Positions 17,232-29,314 of a DNA stretch of 32,622 bases are shown in pieces. The notes under the pieces are model-generated. The model did no database searches. It worked only from the letters and a program-made list of their open reading frames with translations, and was not told the origin of the DNA. The DNA lies in assembly GCA_025358085.1 (NCBI GenBank), contig JANYKT010000104.1:1-32622 (forward strand). The letters run 5' to 3'. The position numbers and the translations under genes were made by a program. The first letter of the stretch is position 1; every line of letters starts with the position of its first letter. The DNA is from Deltaproteobacteria bacterium. Lineage in GTDB: Bacteria; Myxococcota; Myxococcia; Myxococcales; 40CM-4-68-19.

Positions 17232-18788
17232 TCAGTGCACGACAAGGGTCTTTCCTGACATTGCGGCCGGCTGCGGAAGACCCATCATCTGCAGCAGCGT
17301 GGGTGCCACGTCCGCGAGGATGCCGTCCTCGCGCAAGCGCGCCCCTTTCAGCGCCGGATCGCAGAGATAGATGGGCACTGGATTGAGCGTGTGCTGGGTA
17401 AAGGGCTCTCCGCTTTGGTAGTCAATCATCTGCTCGACATTGCCGTGATCGGCGGTGACCACCATGGCAATGCCGTTCTTGCGCGCGACTTCCCAGAGCC
17501 GCCCGATGCACTCGTCCACCTTGGCGACCGCCAGCAGCGCGGCCGGCAGCACGCCAGTGTGACCGACCATGTCCGCATTGGCGTAATTCACCAGCGTAAA
17601 ACCGAACCGCGGGATGGCCCGCTCCAGCTTTTGCGTCACCTCTTCCGCTGACATCTCGGGCTTGAGATCATAGGTCTTCACCTCGCGCGGGCTGGGCACC
17701 AGGATGCGCTCCTCGCCCGGGAACGGCGTCTCGCGCCCGCCGTTGAAGAAGAAGGTGACGTGCGCGTACTTCTCGGTCTCGGCGCAGCGCAGCTGTTGCG
17801 CGCCCGCCTGGCTCACCAGCTCGGGAAGAATCTGCGTCGGCGGGTCGGGCAGGAATGCGCAGGGCAAACCGCGCTTGGTGAAGGTTTCGTCGTATTCGGT
17901 GAGCGTGACGTAGCTTGCGAGCTGCGGGCGCGCCTGTCGAACCCCGGCGCCGGGCGCATCGTCGAAGGCAAGCCAGGCCGTCAGCTCCCGCGCACGGTCG
18001 GCGCGGAAATTGAAGAAGATGACGCTGTCGCCGTCGCGGATCAGCCCGCGCGGCGCGCCGTCGGGCCCGCGCACCACCGTGGGCTGGATGAACTCGTCGC
18101 CCTCCTTGATGGCGTAGCTCCTTTTCACCGCTTCGGCACCGCTCTTGGCCGAGAGGCCTTCGCCGCGCACCATCGCTTGATAGGCGCGTGCGACGCGGTC
18201 CCAGCGCTGGTCGCGATCCATTCCGTAATAGCGGCCGCTCACGGTGGCGACGCTCGCGTGCATGCCGTCGTCGCTCGATTGCTTTTGTAGAGTCTGCTCG
18301 AGCTTCTCAACGAACCCGAGACCGGAGCTGGGCGAGCAGTCGCGGCCGTCGGTGAGCGCGTGCACGAAGACGCGGCGCACGCCCTCGCGGCGCGCCATCT
18401 CCACCAGCCCGAAGAGATGGTCGAGCGAGCTGTGCACGCCGCCGTCCGAGACGAGCCCGATGAGGTGGAGCGCGCCTGCCCTGGCTTTCTGCATCGCGGC
18501 TTTCAGCGGTGCGTCGTGGAAAAGCTCGCCCGACTCGATGGCACGATTGATGCGAACCAGGTCCTGGTAGACGACGCGCCCTGCGCCGAGGTTTGTGTGG
18601 CCCACTTCGCTGTTCCCCATCTGCCCTTCCGGCAGCCCGACCGCGAGGCCCGAGGTCAGGAGTTGCGCGTGGGGGAACTGCCTGGCGAGCTTGTCAAGAT
18701 TGGGCGTGCCTTGCAGCGCGATGGCGTTTCCGTCGCGGCGCGGGTTGATGCCCCAGCCGTCGAGAATGACAAGGAGGACAGGTTGCAT
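17232..18788 (-). CDS. gpmI: 2,3-bisphosphoglycerate-independent phosphoglycerate mutase
   Basis: A 518-residue enzyme of normal length that interconverts 3- and 2-phosphoglycerate in glycolysis and gluconeogenesis, in the cytoplasm. It starts MQPVLLVILDGWGI, with Asp10 as a metal ligand. Ser60 in GQMGNSEVGHTNLGAG is the nucleophile that carries the phosphate. Other family motifs are VHALTDGRDCSP, YYGMDRDQRW, FNFRADRARELT, NYANADMVGHTG and VTADHGN, the last two holding the second metal site. All key residues seen are intact. The ATG at 18788 is well placed; the gene diverges from the alpha-2-macroglobulin gene with 82 bp between, which must hold both promoters. The DUF309 frame follows directly after its TGA. 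Confidence 0.96.
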   Translation of the reverse strand: MQPVLLVILDGWGINPRRDGNAIALQGTPNLDKLARQFPHAQLLTSGLAVGLPEGQMGNSEVGHTNLGAGRVVYQDLVRINRAIESGELFHDAPLKAAMQKARAGALHLIGLVSDGGVHSSLDHLFGLVEMARREGVRRVFVHALTDGRDCSPSSGLGFVEKLEQTLQKQSSDDGMHASVATVSGRYYGMDRDQRWDRVARAYQAMVRGEGLSAKSGAEAVKRSYAIKEGDEFIQPTVVRGPDGAPRGLIRDGDSVIFFNFRADRARELTAWLAFDDAPGAGVRQARPQLASYVTLTEYDETFTKRGLPCAFLPDPPTQILPELVSQAGAQQLRCAETEKYAHVTFFFNGGRETPFPGEERILVPSPREVKTYDLKPEMSAEEVTQKLERAIPRFGFTLVNYANADMVGHTGVLPAALLAVAKVDECIGRLWEVARKNGIAMVVTADHGNVEQMIDYQSGEPFTQHTLNPVPIYLCDPALKGARLREDGILADVAPTLLQMMGLPQPAAMSGKTLVVH

Positions 18789-18870
18789 GACTGCAACGAT
18801 TAGTGTGCCGCGCTCGCGGAAGCAACGATGTCAGGGGCCCGGTGTACATTCCGCGCCCCGGGGGTTCTTC

Positions 18871-21800
18871 ATGCGCAATCTCGCTCTGCTGCTCCTGTTC
18901 ATGACCGCCTGCACACGCAGCCCGCCGAGTGCCAGCGCACCTTTGCCGCCGCGGCGCGAGCTTTCAGCGCCGCCGCCGCCCCCTCAAATTGAAATCCAGC
19001 CGCGCTCGGCGGAGGGCGAAGAAACAGCCTTCCGCGTGCTGGTGGCGCGGCCGCAGGGCAAGCTGCTCGGCGGCGTGCACCCGACGCTGACCTTCAGCGA
19101 GCCGGTGGTGGCGCTCGCGACTCTCGGCCAAAAGGACCCCACCACGACGCTGCAGATGGTGCCCAAGGTAGCTGGGCGCTGGCACTGGCTCGGCTCGTCT
19201 TCCGTGGAGTTCGTCAACGACGAGCCGTTCCCCTACAGCACTGCCTTTCACCTGGTTGTACCGCAGGGCTTTGCCTCGCTGAACGGCGCCCGGCTTGCGC
19301 AGGCGTACCAGCTGGACTTCACCACGCCCACCGTTGAGGTGGACCGGTACGGCATCCAGCCGGACGAACACCAGTGCCGCTGGTCGCTGCCGGATCAGCA
19401 TTTCAAAGTCCTCGTCAATCAGCCGCTCAAAGACCCGGCGACGAACTTCTTTTTTCAGGTCGGCGACCAGAAGCGGCGGGTCGATGTCAAGGTCATCGGC
19501 TCGGTCAATCTGGTGGAGGAGCAGCGGGCGAAGCATCCCGAGCGGCGGCTGGAGACGCCCACGGCGCTCGGCTTCAAGGACCAGCGTACGCGCTACGAGT
19601 TCGCGCCGGCAGAGAGCCTGCCGCTCGAAACTGCTTTTTTTGTCGGGCTCGACGCTGAAGCGCACGGCGCCCAGGGAACGCTCACTGCGGGGCAGGAGTG
19701 GCGCATTCAATGCTCGACGCCGGGTCCAATGCTGATCCAGAGCGTCAGCCGCTGCTCGCAGGAGCAGGATCACTGTGCTGCTGGGCCGCTGACGATTCAA
19801 TTCACCAACCCCATCGCGTCCAGAAAGGCGCTGGCGTCGTTGGTGCACGTCGCGCCCGATCCCCAAGTCGACTACGAGGATGATGACGACAACAGATCTC
19901 CGTACCAGACTACGGTTGCGCTCGAGGGCCACTACCGCCCGGGCCAAGTTTACACCGTCCACATTGACGCAGGCGTGAAGGATCGCTTTGGCCAGGCGGC
20001 GCCGGCCTTCGATGCGAAGGTCACCCTGGATGACTTGCTCCCGTCGCTCTACCTGGGGGGTGAGAAAGCGCTGCTCGAAGCGGACGGCGACGGGCAGCTT
20101 CCCGCGCAGGTCACCAACCTCGACGAGCTGGACGTCGATCTCTGGCGCGTGTCGCCGCAGCAGATGGCGAAATTCGAGCTGTGCAGGGGCCGGGGAAATG
20201 GCTGCCAGGCGCTGCCGTCCGCAGCGCCCGATGTCCCGCTGCAACTCAAGCTCTCCTATCCGCGCAACGAGCCGCACCTGCACGGTGTCGATCTGCGCGC
20301 CGCGCTGGGTGGAGGCAAGACCGGCCTCGTGATCGCCCGCTTGCGAGCGCCTGGTACGCCCTTCGCAGACCATCCGCTGCAGGTCTACGCGCAGCTCACC
20401 GATCTGGCGGTGCACGCGAAGCTGGGCGCGACGGGCGGGCTCGCCTGGGTCACCTCGGTCTCGACCGCGAAGCCGGTGGCGAAGGCGGCGGTGCAGATCT
20501 TCAATCTCAGCGGTGTGCAAGTCGCCGACGCAGTCACCGATGAGCAGGGCATCGCGCTGCTGCCGGGCTACACCGAGCTGGGCCCGAAAAGCGACTACGA
20601 GACGCCGCGCCTGCTGGTGGCAGCCACCTCCGGCGGTGACACCGGCTACGTCACCACCGAGGGCTATGACGAGTTCGTGGCTAGCCAGATCAACCGCGAC
20701 TTCAACGCCGCGCACACGCGCGGCCTGGGGCTGGTCTTCGGCGACCGTGGCATCTACCGGCCTGGCGACACCGCCCACCTCAAGGCCATCCTGCGCACGC
20801 AGGGAGCGGGCGTGCTTTCCACGCCGCCCGAAGGCAGCAAGGTCCACATCGAGGTGACAGACCCGGAGGGCAAGGACGTGCTTTCGCGCGATGTCGCGCT
20901 CTCGAGCTTCGGCACTTTCTCGGTAGACGTGGCGGTCGCCCGCGAGGTGCGGCTGGGCACTTTCTCGGTCTCGGTGCGCGACGCCGGCAAGTTGCACTAC
21001 GCCTATGCAAGCTTCCGCGTTGCCGAGTACCGGGCTCCCCAGTTCCGGGTCGACGTGATGACGCCCAGCCCGGAGCTCACCGCGGGGGACGCACTCACCG
21101 GCTCGGTGGTGGCGCGCTATCTCTTCGGCGGCGCCATGGACCGTGCGCAGGCCTCCTGGAGCGTGCATCGCACGACGGAAGAGTTCGCGCCGCCGCGCAA
21201 CGACGGCTTCAGCTTCGGCCGCCAGACCTGGTCTTGGGACGATGGCACGCCGGGCCACGATGCGAGCACGTTCGCCACAGGGCAGGGCGAGATCGACTCC
21301 ACTGGCACGCTGCAAGTGAAGGCCGGCAAGGTCGAGGCAATGGCGGACCGCACCGCGCGTTACACGCTCGAGGCGGAGGTGGCCGACGTCTCGCGCCAGC
21401 GCGTTGCGGGGCGCAACGGGGTGCTGGTGCATCCGGCCGAATTCTATGTCGGGTTGGGCAAGATCGACCTCTTCGCGCGCGTGGGACAGGAGACCCGGCT
21501 GCCGGTGGTTGCGTCCCGGCCGGACGGGGCCCGCGTGAGCGCCGCGGTGCACGTCAGCGTTCTGCTGCGGGCCTGGCACTCGGTGCGGAAGAAGGGCGTG
21601 AACGGCGTCTACCAGACCGTCAGCGAGCTGGTGGAAGAGAAGGCTGCCGAGTGCGATGTCAAGACCTCTGACACGTCGCAGGATTGCAAGTTCACGCTGC
21701 AAAAGCCGGGCTTCTTCACCGTCCGGGCGGAGGCGCGTGACGCGGCCGGGAGGCTCGCGCTCTCGACCACTTCGCTTTACGCCGTCGGCGCGGGCGAAGC

Positions 21801-24705
21801 CGCCTGGCAGCAGACCGACACGCCACGCGTGGACCTGGTGCCCGACAAGACCGCGTACCAGGTCGGCGACACGGCGCACCTGCTTGTCAAGTCGCCGTAT
21901 TCTTCCTGCGAGGCGCTGGTCTCGGTCGAGCGAGAAGGCATCGCGGAGCAGCGCGTGCTTACGCTGTCGGGCAGCGCGACCACCCTCGACGTGGCCATTA
22001 CCGAAGCGATGGTGCCCAACGTCTTCGTCGGCATCATCTTGCAGCGCGGACGGGTCGCGCAGGGCACGGCGCCGCAGGACGCGACGGCGAGACCGGCAGC
22101 GCAGGCTCAACCGGCCGTGCAGGCTCAGACGACCGTTACCGAGGGCGATGATCCGGGCCGGCCCTCGGTGCGGCTCGGCTACGCGGAGCTGTCGGTCGGC
22201 AAGGGCGTCAAGCGGCTCGCGGTCACAGTCAACACGCCGCAGGCCGAGTACAAGCCGCGCGAGACGGTCCCCATCGACGTGGTTGTCAGCGACGCTGCGC
22301 AGAAGCCCGCCCGGGCGGAGGTGCAGCTTTATGTGGTCGACGAGGCGGTGCTGCGGCTCACCGCGTACCAGCTGCCCGACGCGCTGGAGGCAATCTTCCC
22401 GCGGCACGGGCTGTCCATCGCTATCGGCGAGCCGCTGGCGCGGCTGGTTCGCCGGCAGCGGTTTGGCGAGAAGGGCGAGGTGGTGACCGGCGGCGGCGGC
22501 GGACTCGAACCTTCCGGGGACGTGCGCTCGAAGTTCGTCACCACGGTTGCCTGGCAGACGCTGCTCACCGATGACAAAGGCCACGCGCACGCGGACGTGG
22601 TGCTCCCCGACAACCTGACCACCTTTCGCATCATGGCGGTCGCCGCCACCGCGGGTGACCGCTTCGGCGGCGGCGAGGCGGCGATCCGCGTGGCGCTTCC
22701 GCTCCTGGTCCTGCCGGCGCTCCCACGCTTCGCGCGGGTCGGCGACGACTTCGAGGCCGGCGTTGTGGTTCATTCGCTGACCGCGGCCGAGGTCGAGGTC
22801 ACGGCCCAAATGTCCGGCGGCGTCGAGCTGGTCGACCAGAAGCAGAGCCAGCTGCACGCAAGCGTCGAGGCGGGCGTTGCCAGGGAGGTGCGATTCAAGC
22901 TGCGCTCGACCGCGCCTGGCAAGGCCACGCTGCGTTTCCGCGCTACCGCCGGCAGCCTGAGCGACGCGGTGGAGCAGACCATCCCCATCCAGCTGCCGGT
23001 CGAGCTGGAGGCGGTCGCGCTTGCGGGCGACACAGAGGGGACCGCCGGTCCAGAGTCGAAGCAACGCCCCGCCGACCGCCTCGTCATCCCCAAAGGCGTG
23101 CGGCCCGGAATCGGCGGCCTGGAGCTGCAGCTCTCCTCGACTGCGCTCGGCGGCTTGTCGGAAGGGATGCAGCAGCTGGTCGATTACCCTTACGGCTGCA
23201 TTGAGCAATTGTCATCGCGGCTGGTGCCCTTCGTGGCACTGCGCGAGGTCTCGCGTGTATTCGGTGTCGAGCCACCGGGGATGCCCGGTCTGGGCCGCGA
23301 TCCTGATGAGGTGGTGCGTACCACCATCGGGAAGATCGAATCGCAGCAGGCGCCGTCCGGTGGCTTCTACTACTGGCCCACGCCATCCTGCGCCTATGCG
23401 TGGCCGTCCATCTACGCCACGCTGGCCCTGCACCGCGCGCGAGAGCTGGGCTATCCGGTCAAGCGCGAGACGCTCGCCCAGGCGCGCCGCTTCCTTGCCG
23501 AGAAAGCGGCTGGCACGGGAGCGTGCGAGTCCGAGAAGATCGGTCCCGAGACGCGCGCGTTCGCGCTGCAGGTCCTCGCGCGCATGGGAGATCCCAAGCC
23601 CAGCTATTACGACGAGCTGTATGTGCAGAAGGACAAGCTGCCGCTCTTCGGAAAGGCGCTGCTTGCCGACGCCATGGCGTTGACCAAGGGCGGCCGGCCG
23701 CGCGCCAACGCGCTCTTGCAAGACCTGCTCGACGCGGCTCGTGAGACGGCGCGCGAGGTCCACTTCGAAGAGAACGCCGCCGGGAGCTACGCGCCGCTGA
23801 TGTCGAGCGACACCCGCACGACCGGCATGGTGCTGCAGACGCTGGTCGACCTGCAGCCGCAGCATCCGTACGTCTCGAAGATCGCGCGCTACCTTTCGAA
23901 CGTGCGCAAGGGCGGCCAATACCGCAGCACCCAGGAGGCGGCCTACGCGCTGATGGGACTTGCCGAAGTGGTGCGGCTCAGGGAGCGCACCGCGCCCGAT
24001 TTCGTGGCGCGGGTGTTGCTGGGCGAGAAGGAGCTCGTCTCGCAGCCCTTCAAGGGACGGTCGCTCACCATCCTCTCGAAGACGCTGCCGATGCAGCAGC
24101 TGCTGCAAGGCGGTCCTTCGCTTCCCCTGCGCTTCGCGGCCGACGGTTCGGGCTCACTCTTCTACACGGCGCTGCTGCGCTACGCGCCCTTGGCCCTGCC
24201 GACCGAGCCGCGCAGCGAAGGCATCTTTGTGCAGCGCTGGTTCGAGCCGTATGACCAGCCCGGAAAGCTCTCGACCGACTTCAATGCCGGCGAGCTGGTG
24301 CGCGTGCAGGTCCGCATCGCGACCTCAGAGGAGCGCAACTTCGTCGCGGTTGAAGTGCCGCTGCCGGCTGGGCTCGAGGCGGTGGACACCTCGCTCGCGA
24401 CCACCAGGCAGGCCACGCGCGGTAGCGATGACCAGGAAGGCTCGCAATCAATGGACGAGGCCGCCGATGACTCGTTCTGGAGCCCGTTCGACTACAGCGA
24501 AAAGCGCGACGACCGGGTGCTCTACTTCTCGGACCACCTGCCGCCCGGTGTGCACCTGCAATCGTTCATCGCGCGCGCGACAACGCCGGGGAAATTCGTG
24601 CTCAAGCCAGCGCACGCTGAAGAAATGTACGCGCCCGAGGTGTTCGGCCGCAGCGATGGCGGAACGCTGACGGTCAGCGCGGTGCGGCCGCTGGCGCAGA
24701 AATGA
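18871..24705 (+). CDS. Bacterial alpha-2-macroglobulin lipoprotein with thioester
   Basis: A 1944-residue protein from the ATG at 18871, chosen because it begins with a lipoprotein signal (MRNLALLLLFMTAC, Cys14). Upstream in-frame codons belong to the gpmI antisense. Macroglobulin domains fill the N-terminal half, with the MG2-type motif FGDRGIYRPGDTAHLKAILR around residues 620-640. An A2M-type segment follows later (TTVAWQTLLTDDKGHAHADV, then LPDNLTTFRIMAVAAT). The thioester motif PYGCIEQ is intact, with Cys1443 and Gln1446, so the protein can trap attacking proteases covalently. Family knowledge: the E. coli counterpart (YfhM/ECAM) sits in the periplasm next to PBP1C. This one is larger than the E. 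coli protein (about 1650). It overlaps pbpC by 4 bp (ATGA), so the two are translationally coupled, matching the known wall-repair partnership. Confidence 0.93.
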   Translation: MRNLALLLLFMTACTRSPPSASAPLPPRRELSAPPPPPQIEIQPRSAEGEETAFRVLVARPQGKLLGGVHPTLTFSEPVVALATLGQKDPTTTLQMVPKVAGRWHWLGSSSVEFVNDEPFPYSTAFHLVVPQGFASLNGARLAQAYQLDFTTPTVEVDRYGIQPDEHQCRWSLPDQHFKVLVNQPLKDPATNFFFQVGDQKRRVDVKVIGSVNLVEEQRAKHPERRLETPTALGFKDQRTRYEFAPAESLPLETAFFVGLDAEAHGAQGTLTAGQEWRIQCSTPGPMLIQSVSRCSQEQDHCAAGPLTIQFTNPIASRKALASLVHVAPDPQVDYEDDDDNRSPYQTTVALEGHYRPGQVYTVHIDAGVKDRFGQAAPAFDAKVTLDDLLPSLYLGGEKALLEADGDGQLPAQVTNLDELDVDLWRVSPQQMAKFELCRGRGNGCQALPSAAPDVPLQLKLSYPRNEPHLHGVDLRAALGGGKTGLVIARLRAPGTPFADHPLQVYAQLTDLAVHAKLGATGGLAWVTSVSTAKPVAKAAVQIFNLSGVQVADAVTDEQGIALLPGYTELGPKSDYETPRLLVAATSGGDTGYVTTEGYDEFVASQINRDFNAAHTRGLGLVFGDRGIYRPGDTAHLKAILRTQGAGVLSTPPEGSKVHIEVTDPEGKDVLSRDVALSSFGTFSVDVAVAREVRLGTFSVSVRDAGKLHYAYASFRVAEYRAPQFRVDVMTPSPELTAGDALTGSVVARYLFGGAMDRAQASWSVHRTTEEFAPPRNDGFSFGRQTWSWDDGTPGHDASTFATGQGEIDSTGTLQVKAGKVEAMADRTARYTLEAEVADVSRQRVAGRNGVLVHPAEFYVGLGKIDLFARVGQETRLPVVASRPDGARVSAAVHVSVLLRAWHSVRKKGVNGVYQTVSELVEEKAAECDVKTSDTSQDCKFTLQKPGFFTVRAEARDAAGRLALSTTSLYAVGAGEAAWQQTDTPRVDLVPDKTAYQVGDTAHLLVKSPYSSCEALVSVEREGIAEQRVLTLSGSATTLDVAITEAMVPNVFVGIILQRGRVAQGTAPQDATARPAAQAQPAVQAQTTVTEGDDPGRPSVRLGYAELSVGKGVKRLAVTVNTPQAEYKPRETVPIDVVVSDAAQKPARAEVQLYVVDEAVLRLTAYQLPDALEAIFPRHGLSIAIGEPLARLVRRQRFGEKGEVVTGGGGGLEPSGDVRSKFVTTVAWQTLLTDDKGHAHADVVLPDNLTTFRIMAVAATAGDRFGGGEAAIRVALPLLVLPALPRFARVGDDFEAGVVVHSLTAAEVEVTAQMSGGVELVDQKQSQLHASVEAGVAREVRFKLRSTAPGKATLRFRATAGSLSDAVEQTIPIQLPVELEAVALAGDTEGTAGPESKQRPADRLVIPKGVRPGIGGLELQLSSTALGGLSEGMQQLVDYPYGCIEQLSSRLVPFVALREVSRVFGVEPPGMPGLGRDPDEVVRTTIGKIESQQAPSGGFYYWPTPSCAYAWPSIYATLALHRARELGYPVKRETLAQARRFLAEKAAGTGACESEKIGPETRAFALQVLARMGDPKPSYYDELYVQKDKLPLFGKALLADAMALTKGGRPRANALLQDLLDAARETAREVHFEENAAGSYAPLMSSDTRTTGMVLQTLVDLQPQHPYVSKIARYLSNVRKGGQYRSTQEAAYALMGLAEVVRLRERTAPDFVARVLLGEKELVSQPFKGRSLTILSKTLPMQQLLQGGPSLPLRFAADGSGSLFYTALLRYAPLALPTEPRSEGIFVQRWFEPYDQPGKLSTDFNAGELVRVQVRIATSEERNFVAVEVPLPAGLEAVDTSLATTRQATRGSDDQEGSQSMDEAADDSFWSPFDYSEKRDDRVLYFSDHLPPGVHLQSFIARATTPGKFVLKPAHAEEMYAPEVFGRSDGGTLTVSAVRPLAQK

Positions 24706-26996
24706 ACCGCCCGCGGACTCCGTTGAGCCGCGGGTTCGTACTGACTGCGGGGCTGGGCGGTCTCTGTCTGCTGGCAGCAGTGCTGTGGCCGCTGCCGCCG
24801 GCAGAACTCGCGCTCGCGCGTGCCAGTTCGCTTCGAGTTCTGGCGAGCGACGGCACCCTGCTGCGTGAACTCGCCTCCAGCACTGCCGAGGGTCACGCGG
24901 CGCCGGCGCGACTGGATGCGCTGCCGGCCGACGTCTGGCAAGCCTTCGTGGCCGCAGAAGACAAGCGGTTCTGGTCGCATCCGGGAATCGATCCGCTCGC
25001 GGTGCTGCGGGCGCTCCGTGAAGATCTGCGGCAGCGGCGATTCGCCCAGGGCGCGTCCACGATTCCGCAGCAGCTCGCGCGCCTGCTGCGCCCGCACCGG
25101 CGCGGCTTGTTCGGAAAGCTCGGTGAGGCGGTGTTCGCGGTGCGGCTGAGCGCGCACCTCAGCAAGCGGGAAATTCTGGAGCAGTACCTGACGCGCGTGC
25201 CGCTCGGAAACGACATCCGCGGTGTCGAGGCCGCGGCGCGGCTCTACTTCGATCGACCGGCCGCGGCGCTCACCCCGCTGCAGGCGGCGCTGCTCGCAGC
25301 GCTGCCGCGCAGCCCGGCGGCGCTTGATCCTTTGCGACAGCCGGGACGCGCGCGGGCCGCGGCCTTGCGGGTGCTCGCGCGCATGGAAGCCTGCGGCTAC
25401 CTGAGCGCGAACGACTTCGCGAACGCCCCGCTCGACCTCGCCACCGAGCGCTTTCGGCGTGCGTTCGAGGCGGCCCACTTCGTCGAGGAAGCGGCGCGGC
25501 ATCGCACGCCCGAGGGCGCGGTGACCGTCGAGACCACGCTTGACCTCGCGCTCCAAAGGGCAGTCGAGGGCGCCGTGCGGGAGCAGGTCTTGCAGCTGCG
25601 GGACCGCAACGTCAGCAGCGCCGCGGCGCTGGTGATCGACAACGACAGCGGCGAGGTGCTGGCCTGGGTCGGCTCGCCGGACTGGTTCGACGAGGCACAT
25701 GCCGGCCGCATCGATGCGGTGCGGACCCGCCGGCAGCCCGGGAGCACCCTCAAGCCATTCGCCTACGCCCGCGCGATGGAGCTGGACGCGCTGACGCCAG
25801 CGACCTTGTTGTCCGATGTCGAGTCGCACTTCTCCGCTGCCAGCGGTGACTACGTGCCGAAGAACTACGACCGGCGCGCGCACGGACCGGTGCGTGCCCG
25901 GGTGGCGCTTGCAAGTTCGTACAACGTCCCCGCGGTGCGCGTGGCCGAAAAGCTCACCGCGCCGGGCCTCTTGCGCGCGCTGCACCAGGCAGGCTTCGAC
26001 AGCCTCGTTCTGGACGCCGAGCACTACGGGCTCGGCTTGGTCCTCGGCGACGGCGAAGTGACACTGCTGGAGCTGGCTCGCGCCTATGCCGGTATCGCGC
26101 GCGGCGGCGTGCTGCAGGACCTGACGCTTTTGCGTCGCGCGCTCGACGCGCACGGCAAGCCGCTGCCGCTGCTGCCGCCGGCCTTCCCTCCGCGCCGCAT
26201 GATGACTTCCGCGACCACGGCGCTGGTGACCGACATCCTCGCCGACCCCGCGGCGCGGGCTCCCTCTTTCGGCCTGGACAACGCGCTTCGGCTGCCGTTC
26301 CGGGTCGCCGCCAAGACCGGCACCTCGCGGGCTTTCACCGACAACTGGACCGCCGGGTCCACGCGCGAGCGGACGGTCGCGGTCTGGGTCGGCAACATGA
26401 GCGGCGAGACCATGCGCCACGTCAGCGGCATCACCGGCGCGGGTCCGCTCTTCCAGCGAGTGATGACGCTCGCCATGGCCGGCATCGAGAAGCCGGCGCC
26501 CCTCTGGAATGATCGCACGCTCGAGTCGCACGAGGTCTGCGCGCTGTCGGGCAGCCTGGCCACGGAGTTCTGTCCCTCGCGCGTCAGCGAACGCTTCGCC
26601 GCGGGCACGGCGCCAACGCAGCCCTGCGAGATGCACTCGCGCAAGGGGCTCGATCTGGGCCCCCGCTTCTATGACTGGGCCGCGCACCAGGGGGTGGAAA
26701 CGCTCTCGCTCTCGACGTCCGGCGCTGCCCAGGCCGCGCTCGCCTTTCCAACGGATGGCGACGAGTTCCTGCGCAGCCCCGACCTGCCAGACACCGCGCA
26801 GACCATCCCGGTGCGCGCGCTCGCACCCGCGGGAGGTGAGGCGCTGGAGCTGCGCCTGGACGACGGCGAGCGCACAGCACTGCAGGCGCCCTTCAGCACC
26901 CGCATCCCGGCCCGCCGCGGCCATCACGAGCTTCGCCTCTATCGCCGCGGCCTCGCCGACCCCGACGCGCGGGTTTTCTTCGAGGTCAAAGGCTGA
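24702..26996 (+). CDS. pbpC: Penicillin-binding protein 1C (bifunctional transglycosylase/transpeptidase)
   Basis: A 764-residue protein whose ATG at 24702 overlaps the stop of the alpha-2-macroglobulin gene. One membrane segment lies at about residues 12-30. The glycosyltransferase domain (GT51) has the catalytic Glu86 in AAEDKRFWSHPG and GASTIPQQLARLL (117-129). The transpeptidase domain has Ser348 and Lys351 (PGSTLKPFAYA), the SYN motif (406-408) and KTGT from Lys538. The C-terminal PBP1C-specific domain includes CALSGSLATEFCPS and ends with a beta fold. All catalytic motifs are intact. It polymerises and cross-links peptidoglycan; with its upstream partner it is thought to repair the wall where a protease or predator has breached the envelope. 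Its stop lies 46 bp from the convergent rlmH stop. Confidence 0.95.
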   Translation: MNRPRTPLSRGFVLTAGLGGLCLLAAVLWPLPPAELALARASSLRVLASDGTLLRELASSTAEGHAAPARLDALPADVWQAFVAAEDKRFWSHPGIDPLAVLRALREDLRQRRFAQGASTIPQQLARLLRPHRRGLFGKLGEAVFAVRLSAHLSKREILEQYLTRVPLGNDIRGVEAAARLYFDRPAAALTPLQAALLAALPRSPAALDPLRQPGRARAAALRVLARMEACGYLSANDFANAPLDLATERFRRAFEAAHFVEEAARHRTPEGAVTVETTLDLALQRAVEGAVREQVLQLRDRNVSSAAALVIDNDSGEVLAWVGSPDWFDEAHAGRIDAVRTRRQPGSTLKPFAYARAMELDALTPATLLSDVESHFSAASGDYVPKNYDRRAHGPVRARVALASSYNVPAVRVAEKLTAPGLLRALHQAGFDSLVLDAEHYGLGLVLGDGEVTLLELARAYAGIARGGVLQDLTLLRRALDAHGKPLPLLPPAFPPRRMMTSATTALVTDILADPAARAPSFGLDNALRLPFRVAAKTGTSRAFTDNWTAGSTRERTVAVWVGNMSGETMRHVSGITGAGPLFQRVMTLAMAGIEKPAPLWNDRTLESHEVCALSGSLATEFCPSRVSERFAAGTAPTQPCEMHSRKGLDLGPRFYDWAAHQGVETLSLSTSGAAQAALAFPTDGDEFLRSPDLPDTAQTIPVRALAPAGGEALELRLDDGERTALQAPFSTRIPARRGHHELRLYRRGLADPDARVFFEVKG

Positions 26997-27042: not shown

Positions 27043-27480
27043 TTACTTATGGTACGGCGCGCCGCGGAGGATCTCGAAGGCGCGGTAGAGCTGCTCCAGC
27101 ACCAGCACGCGCGCAAGCCGGTGCGGCAGCGTCAGGCGCGACAGGCTCCAGACAAAGCGCGCTTCCGACCGCACGCGCGGCGAGAGCCCCTCGTCTCCGC
27201 CGATGCAGAGCGTGAGCCCCAGCGCCGAATCGCGCAGCCGGCCGATCCGGTGCGCAAGCTCGGAGGAGGTGACCTCGGTCCCGCGCTCGTCCAGCGCCCA
27301 CAGCTCGGACGGCGGCCGCAGCGCCTTGGCCAGGAGCGCGTCAGCCTCCTTGTCGATGGCGCCGGCCTTGAGCTCAACCAACTCGAGCTCGGCCGACCGC
27401 TGCAGGCGCGAGGCATATTCCTCCACGCCGGCGGCGGTGAACTCCTTATCGCGCCCGACCGAGACCAGCCGGATCTTCAG
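27043..27480 (-). CDS. rlmH: 23S rRNA pseudouridine-1915 N3-methyltransferase RlmH, CTG start
   Basis: A 145-residue SPOUT-class methyltransferase using S-adenosylmethionine to modify pseudouridine 1915 in helix 69 of 23S rRNA. The conserved start KIRLVSVGRDKEFTAAGVEE follows directly on a CTG at 27480-27478; in this frame no ATG, GTG or TTG exists between the upstream TGA and that point. A GTG at 27426 would remove the first beta strand. CTG therefore appears to be the initiator, overlapping the TGA of rsfS as CTGA. Later motifs are ELWALDERGTEVTS, LCIGGDEGLSP (SAM-binding knot) and LVLEQLYRAFEILRGAPYHK at the C-terminus, which is canonical. It is the last gene of proB-proA-rsfS-rlmH; the rsfS-rlmH pair is conserved across many bacteria. 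Confidence 0.92.
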   Translation of the reverse strand: MKIRLVSVGRDKEFTAAGVEEYASRLQRSAELELVELKAGAIDKEADALLAKALRPPSELWALDERGTEVTSSELAHRIGRLRDSALGLTLCIGGDEGLSPRVRSEARFVWSLSRLTLPHRLARVLVLEQLYRAFEILRGAPYHK

Positions 27481-27917
27481 ACCGTCACGCGCGGCGCGTC
27501 AGCCCAGAGCCCTTCCAGGTCGTAGTACGCCCGCTCGTCCTGGTGGAAGACGTGCAGCACCACATCGCCGAAGTCGAGCAGCGTCCACTTGCCACCGCGG
27601 CTCCCCTCGAAGCCGATGGTGCGCTGCCCAGCCTCCTTCATGGCGGCCTCGACGCCCTCAGCCACCGCGTCAAGCTGCCGGTCGCTTCCGCCCGAGCAGA
27701 TGACGAGAAAGTCGGTGTAGCTCGACAGCTCGCGCAGGTCGATGACGATGACGTCCTCGGCCTTCTTCTCCAGCGCGGCGTTCGCCGCCAGCCTGGCTGA
27801 CTTGAGCGAGTCGTCGCTCTTCACCTTGGCGCGGACGGCGGCGCGCTCGGGATCGTGCGTCTTGTTGGACTTCTGCATCTTCTGCGAGAGAGCCATCTGA
27901 TTCGGCGACTGTGGCAT
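27477..27917 (-). CDS. rsfS: Ribosomal silencing factor RsfS
   Basis: About 146 residues if started at the ATG at 27917, or 139 from the ATG at 27896; the N-terminal 35 residues are a charged, poorly conserved extension and do not settle the choice. The DUF143/Iojap core is clear: ALEKKAEDVIVIDLRELSSY, TDFLVICSGGSDRQLDA, GGKWTLLDFGDVVLHVFH and RAYYDLEGLWADAP. Family knowledge: RsfS binds ribosomal protein L14 on the 50S subunit and blocks joining with 30S when nutrients are scarce. It lies 29 bp after proA and overlaps rlmH by 4 bp. Confidence 0.95.
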   Translation of the reverse strand: MPQSPNQMALSQKMQKSNKTHDPERAAVRAKVKSDDSLKSARLAANAALEKKAEDVIVIDLRELSSYTDFLVICSGGSDRQLDAVAEGVEAAMKEAGQRTIGFEGSRGGKWTLLDFGDVVLHVFHQDERAYYDLEGLWADAPRVTV

Positions 27918-27946
27918 CCGTTCCTTTCAAGCGCCCTTTCGGGCGG

Positions 27947-29314
27947 TCATGGTCGCACCTGTCCGTCGCCACGCACGACGAAGCGGGTGCAGGTGAGTTC
28001 GCGCAGGCCCATCGGGCCATACGCGTGGAGCTTGCTGGTGGAGATTCCGATCTCGGCGCCCAGGCCGAGCTCGCCGCCGTCATTGAAGCGGGTCGAAGCG
28101 TTGGAGACAACACACGAGGCATCGACTTCGCGCAAGAAGCGTTCCGCGAGCGCCTCGGAGCGGGTGCAGATGGACTCGGTGTGCCGGCTGCCGTAGCGCG
28201 CGATATGTCGCAGCGCCCCGTCGAGACCGTCGACCACCGCGACGGCGATCGTGAGCTCAAGAAATTCGCGGCCGAAGTCGTCGGGCTGCGCCAGCACCGC
28301 GCGGCCGGTTCCGCCGGTTCCGCCGGCTCCGGATCTCGACAGCGGTGCATTGCCGGTTGGCACGACTTGCGTAGGGGGTCCCCACTCTTGCCAGGATCGC
28401 CAGGCTCGGTCGTCGAGGCGGACTTCGACGCCGTGCTCGAGGAGCGCGCGCGTGAGGACTGGCAGCGCCTCGGCGGCCACCGCTGCATCGACGAGCAGGC
28501 ACTCGAGCGCGTTGCACACGCCCGGCCGTTGCGTCTTTCCATTCACCGCCAGGCGCGCGGCGAGGGCGAGGTCCGCGTCGGCTGCGACGTAAAGATGACA
28601 CACACCTTGATAGTGCTTGATGACCGGGATTCGCGAGCGCTCGGAGATGAAGCGAACGAGGGACGGGCCGCCGCGCGGGATGCAGAGATCGATCTGGTCC
28701 TCGAGCTGCAGCAGCTCGCCAAGCAGCGCGCGATCGGGCGCGACGAGCTGGGCGGCCTCCTCCGGGAGCCCCGCGCGCGCGAGCGCCCGCTGCGCGCAGC
28801 CGAGCAGCACCGAGCTCGTCTGCAGCGCCTCGGACCCCGGACGCAGCAGCACCGCGTTGCCGCTGCGCAGGCAGAGCGCGGCGGCTTCTGCAGTGACGCC
28901 CGGGCGCGACTCGTAGATCATCAGGATCACACCCAGCGGCACGCGCACTCGCTCGACGCGCAGGCCATTGGGGCGCACCTGCCGCTCGACCACCTCGCCC
29001 ACGGGATCAGGCTGCAGCAAAATCGCGCGCACCGACTCCGCGAGCGTGCGCAGCCGCGGCCCGTCGAGCCGCAGCCGATCGAGGAACGCTGCATTTTGGG
29101 CCGCCGCAAAGCGCAGGTCGGCCTCGTTTGCGATTGAGACCGCCTCCGCCGCGGCGAGCAGCTCGTCGGCGAAGAAGCCAATTGCGGTCGCCCGTTGCTC
29201 CGCGCTGGACCGCGCCAGTTGCCGCCCCGCCAGCTGCGCGCGAGTGGCCAGCTCCCGCGCCGCAAGCTGCTGATCGAGCGACGCGGCCCCGGGCCCGGCC
29301 GGTTGGCAGCTCAA
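27947..29314 (-). CDS. proA: Gamma-glutamyl phosphate reductase ProA, TTG start
   Basis: A 455-residue enzyme, second step of proline synthesis: NADPH reduction of gamma-glutamyl phosphate to glutamate semialdehyde. I place the start at the TTG at 29314-29312, which overlaps the proB stop as TTGA; further upstream the frame is only the antisense-like shadow of proB. Family motifs include [54 protein letters not shown] and [16 protein letters not shown], with the catalytic Cys in RPGVCNA. The end, [20 protein letters not shown], is typical. Compared with the E. coli enzyme it carries about 24 extra residues, Gly/Thr/Ser-rich, after QVVPTGN around residue 315-340 (DNA near 28295-28375). Part of the proB-proA-rsfS-rlmH operon. 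Confidence 0.95.

Follow-up and report, generated by a model that had tools for sequence, protein, structure and literature searches.

How a gene can open with CUG, a start codon that bacteria are thought to be nearly unable to use, is the question raised by rlmH in the 32,622-nucleotide stretch of DNA analysed here (the window). Passages of PMC11497404 quote for CUG a share of 0.024% among bacterial starts and an activity 0.86% that of AUG, and describe discrimination against this codon by wild-type initiator tRNA; part of PMC5622118 counts switches to CUG at 2 of 61,358 ancestral AUG, 1 of 5,080 GUG and 1 of 2,468 UUG starts. Excerpts of further papers report that in M. smegmatis CTG is not enriched as a leadered start (PMC4633059), that 688 annotated starts seen in E. 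coli comprised 628 ATG, 50 GTG and 10 TTG (PMC13245402), that CUG forms a complex in vitro yet is unused in vivo (PMC8443254), and that reinitiation at non-canonical codons occurs in a eukaryotic system (PMC4648390). A literature search for a Myxococcus CTG start codon found nothing, and among the matches listed for the rlmH start codon, or listed in further literature searches, no title concerned a CTG start.

The original prediction placed the initiation codon of rlmH at a CTG within a CTGA overlap with rsfS, and the window sequence confirmed this arrangement: minus-strand letters 27480 to 27477 read CTGA, and the TGA ends rsfS. The features of the site are:

27477..27480, minus strand: CTGA overlap, with the predicted CTG start codon of rlmH at 27480-27478 and the TGA stop of rsfS at 27479-27477
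27043..27480, minus strand: rlmH, predicted to encode 23S rRNA (pseudouridine1915-N3)-methyltransferase, 145 aa counted from the CTG
27477..27917, minus strand: rsfS, ribosome silencing factor, an open reading frame of 146 aa that matches TIGR00090 above cut-off over residues 42-138
27499..27501, minus strand: in-frame TGA in the sequence, closing the rlmH frame six codons upstream of the CTG
27424..27426, minus strand: GTG, codon 19 of rlmH, the next canonical in-frame start, judged not to be the main start

The protein evidence agrees with the further claim that the conserved RlmH N-terminus begins at the CTG. The Pfam family PF02590 (RlmH) matched at 136 bits against a cut-off of 27 over profile positions 1-154, beginning at 27480, and residue 1 of the solved chain 1ns5, which we take to be the YbeA/RlmH structure of E. 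coli, aligned to residue 1 of the window protein. All nine NCBIfam models listed for this protein were RlmH models, matching below their curated cut-offs (the best, NF000986, at 124.7 bits against 141; TIGR00246 at 114.2 against 149.7), and the name RlmH therefore rests on the Pfam match together with the alignment to solved RlmH chains. The frame is intact in the window and runs from the start as CTG AAG ATC CGG CTG GTC TCG GTC GGG. Upstream of the CTG, nearest first, the same frame holds GGT GAC CGT GCG GCC CGC and then TGA (27501-27499); these six codons include no ATG, GTG or TTG, as had been stated, nor any of the seven near-cognates tested. By itself such a stretch is weak evidence, as about three quarters of six-codon windows would be expected to lack a start on a uniform-codon estimate. 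The case for a CTG start is instead built on the alignment of both the Pfam model and 1ns5 from residue 1, on the position of the next canonical start at codon 19, and on the occurrence of CTGA in relatives.

Comparison of this codon among related genomes, proposed earlier as a check, was carried out and supports the CTG assignment. Among 193 genomes searched, including the window's own (a 5.42 Mb assembly, 98% complete, and the only one among them from its genus), the RlmH family was present in 169, and start regions were read in 156 of these: 137 of the 139 genomes belonging to the order (all but G038 and G068), both of the 2 from elsewhere in the class and 17 of the 28 from elsewhere in the phylum. 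An rsfS gene upstream of rlmH was placed by tblastn in 123 of the 156 loci and was not detected in the remaining 33. An exact 4-nt overlap joined the two genes in 65 of the 123 pairs, as CTGA in 49, GTGA in 11, TTGA in 3 and ATGA in 2, so that ATG, GTG or TTG opened 16 of the overlapping pairs; the 58 non-overlapping pairs had GTG (38), ATG (14), TTG (1), CTG (1) or, in 4, a model-aligned codon that is not a start codon. The 33 loci lacking a detected rsfS had no CTG start, nor was CTG found in ten loci from other phyla (L048-L057), which were read at the match start only. Sixteen genus labels included CTG, counting the single non-overlapping case. Most CTG starts fell in a larger family (f4); in the window's own family (f1), the 12 genomes had CTGA in 5, GTGA in 3, TAGTG in 1 and, in 3, an ATG that follows a gap of 34-99 nt. 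This housekeeping gene retains CUG in many genera, and does so almost exclusively where its bases are shared with a stop codon; a CTG shared across dozens of related genomes suggests a start that is real and maintained.

It is probable that RlmH begins at the CTG of the overlap by termination-reinitiation after RsfS, using the normal initiator tRNA. The place of the codon and its conservation are observed, and from these we infer initiation there, the one-base shift and the coupling. The CTGA geometry has the same -4 NTGA form as known cases and fits termination-reinitiation, as had been argued, with reinitiation itself deduced from that geometry. On this proposal, once RsfS synthesis had terminated at UGA, the whole ribosome or just the 30S subunit would remain on the mRNA and move one base back onto CUG, and the ordinary CAU initiator tRNA would enter on CUG to begin RlmH as fMet-Lys-Ile-Arg... 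Since CUG is a poor start, the output of RlmH would be small and would come chiefly from ribosomes that had just finished RsfS. An altered initiator tRNA was considered and rejected for the window's own genome only, which holds two tRNA-Met(CAT) genes with the normal GGG/CCC anticodon stem and, allowing at most one mismatch to the pattern, no CAG version; IF3 was also located.

The main rival accepts the CTG start and holds that the 30S subunit binds independently, at a Shine-Dalgarno-like sequence within rsfS, uncoupled from the termination of RsfS. Overlaps of the -4 kind usually have an SD-like motif in the upstream gene, but do not require one. Pairing was scored over the 17 bases that precede the start region, against a background with a mean of -3.1 and a 5th percentile of -7.7. 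The mean of -7.1 in f4 CTG genomes speaks for such binding, although it does not reach that percentile, and so does one genome (G108, locus L120) in which the CTG lies 93 nt past rsfS, immediately preceded by ATC, behind CAAGGAGTTATC with its SD-like AAGGAG. Elsewhere the f1 CTG genomes averaged -3.6, the 11 GTGA genomes -1.4 and the gapped GTG genomes -5.5, whereas the window's own genome has no SD-like pairing in those 17 bases (+0.6), and CTG is nearly restricted to the 4-nt overlap (49 of 65 pairs, against 1 of 58 elsewhere). Independent binding is an unlikely account, though the most probable of the rivals. Reinitiation is the best-supported route in view of the ordinary initiator tRNA and the pattern of SD pairing; in f4 it is probably assisted by Shine-Dalgarno-like sequence close to the rsfS stop, and in the window's genome, where such pairing is absent, coupling would do more of the work. 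In G030, of the same genus as G108, TTG stands at the place of the G108 CTG.

Whether translation might instead begin downstream or upstream was addressed by comparing codons across the 49 CTGA genomes, which supply 41 distinct contexts; sequence pairs among these are not independent. The synonymous share of codon differences was 1.0, 0.86, 0.91, 1.0 and 1.0 at codons 2, 4, 7, 9 and 11 (the first base of codon 2 being fixed by the rsfS stop), and ranged from 0 to 0.35 over codons -12 to -1. At codons 3, 5, 6, 8 and 10 it was 0.14-0.41, overlapping the upstream range, and the exchanges were mostly V/I/L, L/V/A and K/R. Read in this way, a coding signature appears to begin at codon 2 of rlmH and to be lacking in the twelve codons upstream. 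A downstream start, with the preceding residues untranslated, would in the window use the next canonical codon, the GTG at 27426, and is very improbable: the signature covers codons that would then lie outside the gene, the alignments to the Pfam model and to 1ns5 both begin at residue 1, and the conserved N-terminus would be dropped, for which reason this GTG was judged not to be the main start. Furthermore, the next canonical codon is not homologous among CTG genomes, falling at 5, 8, 15, 19, 20, 27 or 34-38, and some have no canonical start in codons 2-45.

A start farther upstream, inside rsfS, would give RlmH an N-terminal extension and is slightly less probable again. In 12 of the 50 CTG genomes a canonical codon does lie 10 to 206 codons up in an unbroken frame (in 3 of these the frame is also open to the stretch edge), and in many other CTG genomes a CTG stands ten codons up. 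In the other 38, an in-frame stop precedes the CTG with no intervening ATG, GTG or TTG, and 37 of these closed frames contain a near-cognate between stop and CTG, mostly that same CTG; the window's genome alone has none, its frame being shut after six codons that are not start-like. Against the extension stand also the low synonymous conservation of the upstream codons and the nature of the CTG at -10, which arises from an out-of-frame reading of the conserved LW codons in rsfS. A fusion of RsfS and RlmH, made by a -1 frameshift where rsfS ends, accords with the -1 relation of the two frames, which in the window confines the joint to the last few codons, but can be given scarcely any weight because the last rsfS codon of CTGA genomes varies (GCC, TCC, GTC, ACC, CCC), inspection by eye saw no slippery heptamer, and relatives start rlmH at ATG or GTG after a gap. 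An error of assembly or sequencing, or decay of the gene, is just as hard to credit despite the 217 contigs of the window's assembly, as the RlmH frame is intact and the identical base occurs in 49 genomes, with 13 CTG genomes assembled in one or two contigs; resequencing to ATG, GTG or TTG is for the same reason very unlikely.

The original prediction held that a weak start is tolerated in this geometry; the geometry stood, and tolerance is possibly too weak a word for f4, where the leading C looks maintained. This C is also position 3 of the final codon of rsfS. Its history was followed on a tree of 112 rsfS-rlmH pairs (GTR+F+R4), which uses the same rsfS/rlmH bases as the columns compared and so is not independent of them. 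Parsimony placed CTG as basal in f4 (support 88) and in f1 (support 93) with the root unresolved; families that branch between the two start rlmH with ATG or GTG, and their positions are poorly supported, so a single and a double origin of CTG are not separable. CTG versus non-CTG required 10 changes on the tree, and at least 29 in 500 label shuffles. Among 52 overlapping f4 genomes the leading base was C in 44 and G in 8, with 1 parsimony change, against 2-14 changes in 36 fourfold rsfS columns; because it changes less than ordinary silent rsfS sites, the C appears to be maintained in f4. In all 65 overlap genomes there were 4 changes, a number not exceeded in 2 of 34 columns, and in 47 non-overlapping taxa the same base changed at the usual rate (7 changes, median 7). 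Within f1 alone, 8 genomes being too few for power, there was 1 change against a median of 2, and 17 of 38 columns were at or below it; a control of 27 f4 genomes that had gone from overlap to GTG, also with too little power, gave 0 changes, as did 13 of 48 columns. GC pressure alone was rejected as the cause of the C, the f4 counts and their one change being set against a pooled rsfS wobble composition of 53% C and 44% G in the overlap genomes of that family, a comparison whose weight is lowered by shared ancestry.

A change from C to G, mostly a silent single step, would give GTG, and the C nonetheless stays in f4, where departures from CTG came mostly together with loss of the overlap. In 18 f4 genomes a GTG stands one base past the TGA. 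Four of them (G040, G078, G099 and G119; loci L125, L144, L158 and L165) carry an exact tandem TGAAG TGAAG, which turns the CTGA overlap into TGA-A-GTG, and the other 14 differ from it by one base. Since the 18 fall into three separate tree groups (g7 with g22, part of g24, and G119), a 5-bp duplication may have supplied the GTG repeatedly. One possible, though tentative, reading of the retained C is that CTG is selected and not just tolerated, as a weak start usable only by a ribosome fresh off RsfS that would keep RlmH low and tied to RsfS.

CTG starts being common genome-wide was examined as a candidate explanation and rejected. A six-frame codon-usage scan of 342 kb of the window's own genome, window included, detected 62 NTGA pairs in which the downstream frame was coding, led by A in 25, G in 17, T in 11 and C in 9; 37 of them lacked a canonical start between codons -15 and +10 (17 A, 11 G, 7 T and only 2 C, one of the two being rlmH). 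With other scan thresholds the same sequence gave 12 pairs and one isolated CTGA, that of rlmH. In a 400 kb sample of G118, chosen to contain its rlmH, the codon-usage scan missed rlmH and is therefore uninformative, and the version with other thresholds gave two isolated CTGA, rlmH and a doubtful 70-aa frame. It is not claimed that rlmH has the sole CTGA start of the genome. A second CTGA (L176:9077, on contig C1 of the same genome) opens a weakly uracil-DNA-glycosylase-like frame at CTG, with no ATG, GTG or TTG before codon 36 and, by eye, an RNA-binding-protein-like gene upstream. When it was followed in 60 relatives, similarity began at residue 7-10 in 30 of 39 other matches, which leaves its CTG a candidate start.

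The surroundings in the window also include a canonical counterpart, a classical ATGA overlap at 24702-24705 (plus strand), between these genes:

18595-24705, plus strand: bacterial alpha-2-macroglobulin gene, upstream partner of the ATGA overlap
24702-26996, plus strand: transglycosylase/transpeptidase (PbpC-like) gene, downstream partner of the ATGA overlap

In many bacteria nadD stands between a proA-like gene and rsfS; it is absent from this place in the window (27917-27947, minus strand), and a nadD-like match below its curated cut-off was seen on another contig.

The CTGA of rlmH provides a natural setting in which to ask whether a reinitiating ribosome is less strict about its start codon than one initiating from scratch, and gene finders restricted to ATG, GTG and TTG would leave such genes truncated or mis-started. 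Rare natural bacterial starts outside AUG, GUG and UUG include the AUU starts of infC and pcnB, in which a weak start is likewise kept in a housekeeping gene; unlike these, the rlmH codon is CUG, lies in a stop-start overlap and is kept across many genera, and we know of no autoregulation of rlmH. In geometry the nearest likeness is to the 4-nt stop-start overlaps with termination-reinitiation described in parts of Huber et al. (2019, PMC6728339; 2023, PMC10666635), which have the same -4 spacing and same-strand neighbours. The -4 class in the portion of PMC10666635 considered is ATGA or GTGA, whereas the first codon here is CTG, and the terms CTG and CUG are absent from the main texts of both papers and of the review PMC12548453. 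For the codon itself, sections of PMC11497404 on E. coli initiation complexes report that the complex formed by fMet-tRNA on CUG maintains the reading frame; those experiments relied on model mRNAs and, for the most part, on a variant initiator tRNA, whereas rlmH is a natural gene and the initiator-type tRNAs of its genome carry the normal stem.
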